A DNA stretch of 44,454 bases. Origin: an archaeon (GTDB taxonomy: Archaea > Micrarchaeota > Micrarchaeia > CAILAH01). The DNA is taken from assembly GCA_024274875.1 (NCBI GenBank), contig JAJSAH010000010.1, positions 1 through 44,454 on the forward strand. The letters are read 5' to 3'. The translations under genes and the position numbers were made by a program. Shown here piece after piece: positions 13,623 to 14,707 of this stretch (positions are counted from its first letter, which is position 1; each line of letters opens with the position of its first letter). A model generated the notes under the pieces. It was not told the origin of the DNA. It saw only the letters and a list, made by a program, of their open reading frames with translations, and did not search any database.

Positions 13623-14507
13623 ATGTTTAGGATAGTTGTGCTGGGAAGCGGTGGTGCGATTCCTTCCCCAAACAGAAATGTAAGTTGCGTCGGGATAAGG
13701 CATAATGGAAAAGTGTATGTTTTCGATGCATGTGAAGGCATGCAAAAACAGATGATGAAGTATAAGTTAAGCTACTATAAAACATGCGCAATATTTATTT
13801 CGCATCTTCACCCTGATCATTTCCTTGGGATTCCTGGATTGGCATACACTCTGCAGCTTAGCAATTTCGAAGGAACTTTGCGCATCATTGGACCAAAAGG
13901 AATTAAAAGAGTTGTTGAAGGACTGCTCGCAGGAAATGTGCCTAAATTTATGCGCATAGAGGAATTTCATAAAGAAGGAGTTGTGTTTGAAAATGGTGAT
14001 CTATCAGTGCTTGCGTTCAAAGTCAAGCATTCAAATACATCGTATGGATATGAGGTTAAACAAAAAGGAATTCGAAAGTTTGATGAGGAAAAGGCAAAAA
14101 TGCTCGGAATAAAAGGAAGGATGTTCAGAGATATTGAGGAGAAGGGATGTTTAATTGTAGGGAAGAAGAAAATAATGCTTGATGATGTAAGCTGGATTAA
14201 GGACGGGAAGCGGATTGTATATACAGGAGATACTATTAAGTGCAATAATGTGGCAGAGCATGCAAAACATGCGGATGTGCTCATACATGATGCAACATTC
14301 ATAGAGGCAGATAGAAAGGATGCTGATGAAAAAATGCATGCGACTGCACTCGACGCCGCAAAAACCGCTGAGGAAGCAGAGTGCGGCATCCTTGTGCTCA
14401 TTCATATAAGCAATAAGTATAAGAGCGATGAGGAGCACATTAAAGAAGCAAAAAACATATTTGGCGAAGCGATTGTTGCAAAAGATGGTCTTGAAATACA
14501 TATTTAA
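13623..14507 (+). CDS. rnz: Ribonuclease Z (tRNA 3' endonuclease)
   Basis: 294 residues, normal for the short tRNase Z form. It has the metallo-beta-lactamase motif HLHPDH at 61-66 (two zinc ligand sites, D65 as general base), H136 in KVKHSNTSYGY, D203 in YTGDT, and a C-terminal His in LIHISNKY (H261). GYEVKQKGIRKFDEEKAKMLGI resembles the substrate region of the family. It removes 3' trailers from tRNA precursors, needed where CCA is not encoded; the tRNA gene 27 bases downstream indeed lacks CCA. The mRNA is probably leaderless from the shared TATA box at 13592-13601. Confidence 0.95.
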   Translation: MFRIVVLGSGGAIPSPNRNVSCVGIRHNGKVYVFDACEGMQKQMMKYKLSYYKTCAIFISHLHPDHFLGIPGLAYTLQLSNFEGTLRIIGPKGIKRVVEGLLAGNVPKFMRIEEFHKEGVVFENGDLSVLAFKVKHSNTSYGYEVKQKGIRKFDEEKAKMLGIKGRMFRDIEEKGCLIVGKKKIMLDDVSWIKDGKRIVYTGDTIKCNNVAEHAKHADVLIHDATFIEADRKDADEKMHATALDAAKTAEEAECGILVLIHISNKYKSDEEHIKEAKNIFGEAIVAKDGLEIHI

Positions 14508-14534: not shown

Positions 14535-14625
14535 GGGGCTGTGGGCTAGCTTGGTTATGCTACCAGCTTTGGGAGCTGGAGACCCCAGTTCAAAAGAAAG
14601 AGTTCTGAAAATCTGGGCAGCCCCA
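14535..14625 (+). tRNA. tRNA-Pro(TGG) with a 17-nt intron in the T-loop
   Basis: The acceptor stem pairs GGGGCTG (14535-14541) with CAGCCCC (14618-14624), discriminator A14625, no encoded CCA. The anticodon stem CCAGC/GCTGG (14563-14567, 14575-14579) holds loop TTTGGGA, giving anticodon TGG and G37, proper for proline. The T-stem CCCAG/CTGGG (14584-14588, 14613-14617) is perfect but the loop is 24 nt instead of 7. Removing 17 nt restores TTCAAAT. Exons are therefore 14535-14594 and 14612-14625, total 74 nt. The D-stem contains a G-U and a U-U pair, as is common in tRNA-Pro. Confidence 0.93.
14595..14611 (+). other. tRNA intron at position 59/60 with canonical bulge-helix-bulge
   Basis: The T-stem serves as the outer helix. 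It is followed by a 4-bp central helix (TTCA 14589-14592 with TGAA 14606-14609), a 3-nt bulge on each strand (AAA 14593-14595 and AAT 14610-14612), and an inner 3-bp helix (GAA/TTC) closed by the tetraloop AGAG. Cutting between the second and third base of each bulge, the known rule of archaeal splicing endonuclease, yields exactly the loop TTCAAAT. Confidence 0.88.
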
Positions 14626-14645: not shown

Positions 14646-14707
14646 GCGATCAGAGTCAAGTCACTTCCTCATTCCATAGGTCAGGCAAGCTAAACTCATC
14701 ATCTCGC
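14646..14707 (-). ncRNA. Box C/D sRNA (2'-O-methylation guide)
   Basis: On the minus strand: box C ATGATGA (14702-14696), an 11-nt guide GTTTAGCTTGC, box D' CTGA (14684-14681), an 8-nt spacer, box C' ATGAGGA (14672-14666, one change from consensus), a 12-nt guide AGTGACTTGACT, and box D CTGA (14653-14650). GCGA just before box C pairs with TCGC just after box D, the expected terminal stem. All spacings match archaeal C/D sRNAs. By the 'fifth base from box D' rule the two guides point at the fifth base of targets AGUCAAGUCACU (A) and GCAAGCUAAAC (G). I cannot assign the target RNAs from this window. Confidence 0.85.

Follow-up and report, generated by a model that had tools for sequence, protein, structure and literature searches.

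A predicted 17-nt T-loop intron with a bulge-helix-bulge motif in a tRNA-Pro(UGG) gene of the archaeal class Micrarchaeia

A tRNA-Pro(TGG) gene with a T-loop of 24 nt raises the question of whether the surplus is an intron that the cell removes, or whether the gene is decayed, its product unusual or its sequence in error. The locus lies in a 44,454-nt stretch of DNA that was analysed as a whole and is called the window here. Our reading, to which we give a probability of roughly 0.94, is that a Micrarchaeia (DPANN) archaeon has here a functional tRNA-Pro(UGG) gene, with a 17-nt bulge-helix-bulge (BHB) intron at position 59/60 that is spliced by EndA and RtcB. Judged from sequence, the 17 nt are very probably removed by the cell's own broad-specificity tRNA-splicing enzyme; we infer transcription, the cleavage positions, ligation and the function of the mature tRNA.

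Read directly, the gene has the acceptor stem GGGGCTG/CAGCCCC, the anticodon arm CCAGC-TTTGGGA-GCTGG with the anticodon TGG, the T-stem CCCAG/CTGGG and A73. Pairing is complete in the acceptor, anticodon and T stems, and the D-stem is short, with three pairs of which one is G-U. The T-loop, TTCAAAAGAAAGAGTTCTGAAAAT, has 17 surplus nucleotides at 59/60, as an earlier note on this DNA had described. Features and their positions are collected in the table below. The Ribonuclease Z gene that lies directly upstream (259.5 bits with NF000801, against a cut-off of 252) is a neighbour and stands outside the intron system.

Features of the locus and of related loci (positions without a contig or locus prefix are those of the window)
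Feature	Location	Strand	Remarks
tRNA-Pro(TGG) gene with intron	14535..14625	+	91 nt; 74 nt once the intron is removed
5' T-stem strand	14584-14588	+	direct reading
TTCAAA	14589-14594	+	direct reading
Intron AGAAAGAGTTCTGAAAA	14595..14611	+	17 nt; T-loop position 59/60; removal gives TTCAAAT
T60	14612	+	direct reading
3' T-stem strand	14613-14617	+	direct reading
3' acceptor strand	14618-14624	+	direct reading
A73	14625	+	direct reading
BHB	14584..14617	+	direct reading; covariation in 21 homologous arms; R1 match
R1 match	14584-14625		window sequence is within the training set of the model
Ribonuclease Z gene (tRNA 3'-end processing)	13623..14507	+	upstream neighbour; NCBIfam NF000801; Pfam Lactamase_B_2
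Candidate C/D box sRNA	14646-14707	-	faces tRNA-Pro(TGG)
tRNA-Pro(CGG)	C18:54700-54837		17-nt insert at 59/60
EndA	L001:889-2049		386 aa
Second PF01974 protein	L002:1315-1764 (G000 C14)		149 aa
67-nt-unit array	L039:396-551 (G000 C20)		Arg-TCG T-loop intron
56-nt-unit array	L040:1666-1796 (G000 C16)		Tyr-GTA T-loop intron
67-nt-unit array	L043:1497-1653 (G000 C8)		initiator-type Met anticodon-loop intron
Tandem duplication at a Met tRNA 3' end	L043:1682-1934 (G000 C8 end)		period 137; 1.8 copies

Standard searches miss this gene. ARAGORN did not detect it even when anticodon-loop introns were allowed, and Rfam RF00005 matched positions 14535-14593 at 20.2 bits, below its 29-bit cut-off because the model skips the T-arm. 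Since both tools fail, annotation that relies on them reports as missing tRNAs that are actually present. A strict scan of both strands for a cloverleaf with a T-loop intron and a central helix returned this locus alone in the window, and the same architecture occurred in 0 of 60 first-order-Markov random windows of equal size.

The canonical BHB that the earlier note proposed is present exactly as described. The T-stem forms the outer helix, TTCA/TGAA a central helix of 4 bp and GAA/TTC an inner helix of 3 bp, with bulges AAA and AAT of 3 nt each and a terminal loop AGAG. When the intron was shuffled, the 4-bp central helix was kept in 2.7% of cases and both helices in 0.02%. The BHB is not the lowest-energy fold of the isolated arm: at -6.8 kcal/mol it is outdone by 2.3 kcal/mol by an alternative that lacks the central helix and has, within a 6x6 internal loop, a hairpin of 4 bp, AGAA/TTCT (minimum free energy -9.1 kcal/mol). 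We therefore argue for the motif from covariation and from the splice product, which is exact, and not from energy; because the enzyme binds the motif, a BHB of lowest energy is not strictly required. Covariation was scored on 21 T-arms from the window's genome and relatives, with loops trimmed to a common length. Here 92% of paired cells were filled by pairs, against 69% in shuffles, and the covariation score was 0.647, against 0.215 in shuffles (reached by 0 of 500); no slid structure exceeded 0.173. Pairing amounted to 100% in the T-stem, 96% in the central helix and 73% in the inner helix, and the weakness of the last fits the relaxed motifs seen in several members. Within the central helix, exon base 57 and its intron partner switch jointly from A-U to G-C.

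We envisage the following course of splicing. In the pre-tRNA, the BHB would arise by pairing of the intron with the T-stem and with TTCA, exon bases 54-57, and a homodimer of the epsilon2-type EndA would cut both bulges just ahead of their third nucleotide (AA^A and AA^T), setting free the 17-nt intron. RtcB would then ligate exon 59 to exon 60, giving the T-loop TTCAAAT and the predicted junction CCCAGTTCAAA|TCTGGG. T-loops nearly always have TTCRA, which makes the exon half of the motif ready-made, so that a spliceable insert would need little beyond a 3' end of (T/C)G(A/G)A and the bulge bases. This may be the reason that 59/60 is favoured in Micrarchaeia.

Both enzymes are encoded in the window's genome. 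The earlier note had held that an intron at this position calls for an endonuclease of broad specificity, of the epsilon2 or (alpha-beta)2 type, and an epsilon2-type EndA is indeed there: residues 10-386 align to residues 10-387 of the ARMAN-2 enzyme (4fz2; E=2.3e-124), a single chain across the whole alphaN-alpha-betaC protein, which makes it a three-unit, epsilon2-type EndA. Broad specificity is established for this type (PMC6379350, PMC12397907). Y236, H251 and K282 of the catalytic triad and Y160 and K161 of the loop, which are reported to be required for cleavage (PMC12397907), are all identical to 4fz2 in the alignment. A PF01974 protein was found in 60/60 relatives searched, nearly all with a long open frame of epsilon size, and the EndA of the ARMAN-2-like genome G037 reads the same as the aligned 4fz2 sequence, by which the window falls into Micrarchaeia, the class of ARMAN-2. 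The RtcB ligase was identified at E=8.4e-175.

Besides this EndA there is a second, shorter PF01974 protein. The paralogue recurs in 4/4 same-family relatives at 45-48% identity and also in some other families. Comparison of positions with the M. jannaschii sequence from the PDB put Glu at the catalytic His position in 5/5 paralogues, with the Tyr position variable and the Lys kept. Given the change of His to Glu and the variable Tyr, the paralogue is, on its sequence, probably a non-catalytic subunit.

The most direct comparison comes from G002, a genome of the same family. Its orthologous tRNA-Pro(TGG) is uninterrupted in the T-arm and reads exactly CCCAGTTCAAATCTGGG (CCCAG-TTCAAAT-CTGGG), the very T-arm that excision at the bulges of the window's gene would restore; the earlier note had predicted its loop, TTCAAAT. 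In place of a 59/60 intron the G002 gene has one at 37/38. At the empty site not a base is added or missing, and comparison of the two sequences says that the window's insert is a real intron, recently gained or lost; with such a site in a sister genome, gain and loss of 59/60 introns can be traced within one family.

The insert also has company in its own genome. The only other tRNA-Pro detectable there, tRNA-Pro(CGG), has an insert at the same site and of the same length, identical at 14/17 positions. In all, 59/60 inserts occur in 7 tRNAs of this genome (Pro-TGG, Pro-CGG, one with the anticodon CAT, Val-TAC, Arg-TCG, Tyr-GTA and Ala-TGC), each with a central helix of 4 bp or nearly so; in the 5 non-Pro tRNAs the inserts are 15 to 162 nt long. 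Two loci, C20:22822 and C16:3305, were considered as split tRNAs ending at 59 and rejected; their 3' parts follow 143-162 nt downstream, so they are long T-loop introns. A 37-nt tRNA-Pro pattern had no match in 60 relatives beyond the window itself, and a looser pattern returned the orthologs. An exact-pattern scan of viral contigs gave no match, and distant BLAST against plasmids and phages gave chance matches only (E about 0.7), so these searches show no sign of a mobile element carrying tRNA-Pro(TGG).

Three other explanations have to be weighed against splicing. If the mature tRNA kept the 17 nt, its T-arm lengthened by them, the gene would encode an unspliced structural variant, and the best fold of the isolated arm is indeed a long hairpin that contains an internal loop. 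We nevertheless regard this as very improbable: inserts at this one site vary in length between 13 and 162 nt, conservation lies in the splice motif and not in the insert body, and the cognate endonuclease and ligase are both encoded. Moreover, a 7-nt T-loop is needed for the contacts between the T-loop and the D-loop.

We give still less credit to the idea of a pseudogene, that is, a decayed extra tRNA-Pro copy with a small insertion while another copy is in use. The rejection of the gene by ARAGORN and RF00005 would speak for decay, but three stems are intact, the insert can be removed exactly, and inserts of the same type occur in other tRNAs of the same genome and in dozens of other genomes. 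The locus is also the only tRNA-Pro(TGG) found in the assembly. A second intact copy, which the earlier note had named as the sign of a pseudogene, was looked for and not found in the 833-kb assembly (24 contigs, 89.7% complete); at that completeness the missing sequence could contain an intact copy. The draft state of the assembly, in 24 contigs, is also what could be said for an assembly or sequencing artefact. To this we attach next to no weight, since a 59/60 insert with complementarity at the splice sites is found in tRNA-Pro(CGG) as well and independently in other genomes.

How common such introns are was assessed with R1, a covariance model with 42 positions that describes the splice motif of the T-arm and was trained on 21 arms, the window's included. 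R1 was run on class members only; a phylum-wide search returned class members only. At E<=0.001 it matched in 85/117 class genomes. Among the best 30 matches, which include some training-set sequences, all 30 had a paired acceptor stem and an upstream tRNA body, and all 30 gave TTCAAAT on removal of inserts of 13-48 nt. Together these counts make 59/60 introns ordinary in the clade, and the earlier note's view of them as rare outside Thermoproteales and some DPANN archaea needs correcting here. The hairpin, which the earlier note put close to the smallest that can carry a full BHB, is not itself the smallest: in relatives this site has introns of 13 and 15 nt, which places 17 nt near the minimum and not at it. 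G037 has four T-loop introns, all short. In G002 and G003 the tRNA-Lys(TTT) gene is split at 59/60; its orthologs in G004 (L103) and G001 (L104) are apparently interrupted after TTC (about 56/57), at another insertion point in the T-loop. For annotation, the window's gene offers a clean example of a known and easily overlooked type of tRNA, and throughout this class of uncultivated archaea tRNAs of that type can be recovered with a small covariance model of the splice motif.

The tRNA-Pro(TGG) T-loop intron is a fresh instance of an already known type. Position 59/60 is among the listed positions of archaeal tRNA introns (Yoshihisa 2014, PMC4090602), and the listed 59/60 introns resemble the window's in position, in the BHB at the exon-intron borders and in leaving a canonical T-loop after removal. 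They come mostly from Crenarchaeota and Nanoarchaeota, whereas the window's is a very short one from Micrarchaeia, and its central helix is AU-rich and built from the T-loop itself. Closer to home, multiple introns are listed for ARMAN-1 and ARMAN-2 (PMC4033280), whose intron-containing pre-tRNAs are cleaved by epsilon2 EndA (reviewed in PMC4033280 and PMC6379350); these share class and enzyme type with the window's intron. The assays in PMC12397907 used pre-tRNA-Ile(UAU) and pre-tRNA-Cys(GCA). In the literature searched, which did not extend to the primary report of 2011 on the EndA of ARMAN, we found neither a published test of a 59/60 intron from this class nor a description of T-loop intron frequency across it, and we do not claim that frequency as new.

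More distant parallels exist. The splicing enzyme of Pyrobaculum islandicum is of the (alpha-beta)2 type. Its tRNA-Pro(UGG), the same isoacceptor as ours and likewise interrupted in the T-loop, has three introns, at 25/26, 56/57 and 37/38, the T-loop one thus lying at 56/57 and not at 59/60 (PMC4090602). Candidatus Caldiarchaeum subterraneum, from another phylum, has an intron-rich tRNA set with introns in the D-, V- and T-arms (PMC3293823).

Several introns recur between different tRNAs. Tandem arrays inside introns of three tRNAs share the hairpin GAGGGCGCTTCCGCCCCTC, with units of 67, 56 and 67 nt in the Arg, Tyr and Met genes; the Arg and Met units are identical at 97/99 positions, and related sequence lies in a tRNA-Asp T-loop intron of G004. 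This sharing suggests that introns have been copied between tRNA genes. In G002, tRNAs for Val, Glu and Gly have near-identical T-loop introns (46-48 positions of 49-50), and a second intron is common to tRNA-Lys and a further tRNA-Gly (43/45), all at loci among L102, L105, L111, L175 and L176; the near-identical introns resemble the intron transposition described for Thermoproteales. It is conceivable, at somewhat less than even odds in our estimate, that Micrarchaeia are an undescribed hotspot of tRNA intron gain. In such a hotspot most genomes would have introns at a preferred 59/60 site, where the universally conserved T-loop (TTCAA) supplies the exon half of the motif, and families of similar introns, some with tandem repeats of 56-67 nt, would spread between tRNAs, in several families alongside a second, catalytically degenerate EndA paralogue that may belong to the splicing complex.

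Two minor features lie close to tRNA genes. The C/D box sRNA, a good candidate, has the boxes C (ATGATGA), D' (CTGA), C' (ATGAGGA) and D (CTGA) and a short terminal stem, GCGA/TCGC, and its match to Rfam sR60 is just 16 bits. At the contig end near the initiator-type Met array, the 3' end of this Met tRNA gene and about 100 nt downstream of it are repeated in tandem; this duplication could be attachment-site-like or an edge effect of the assembly.
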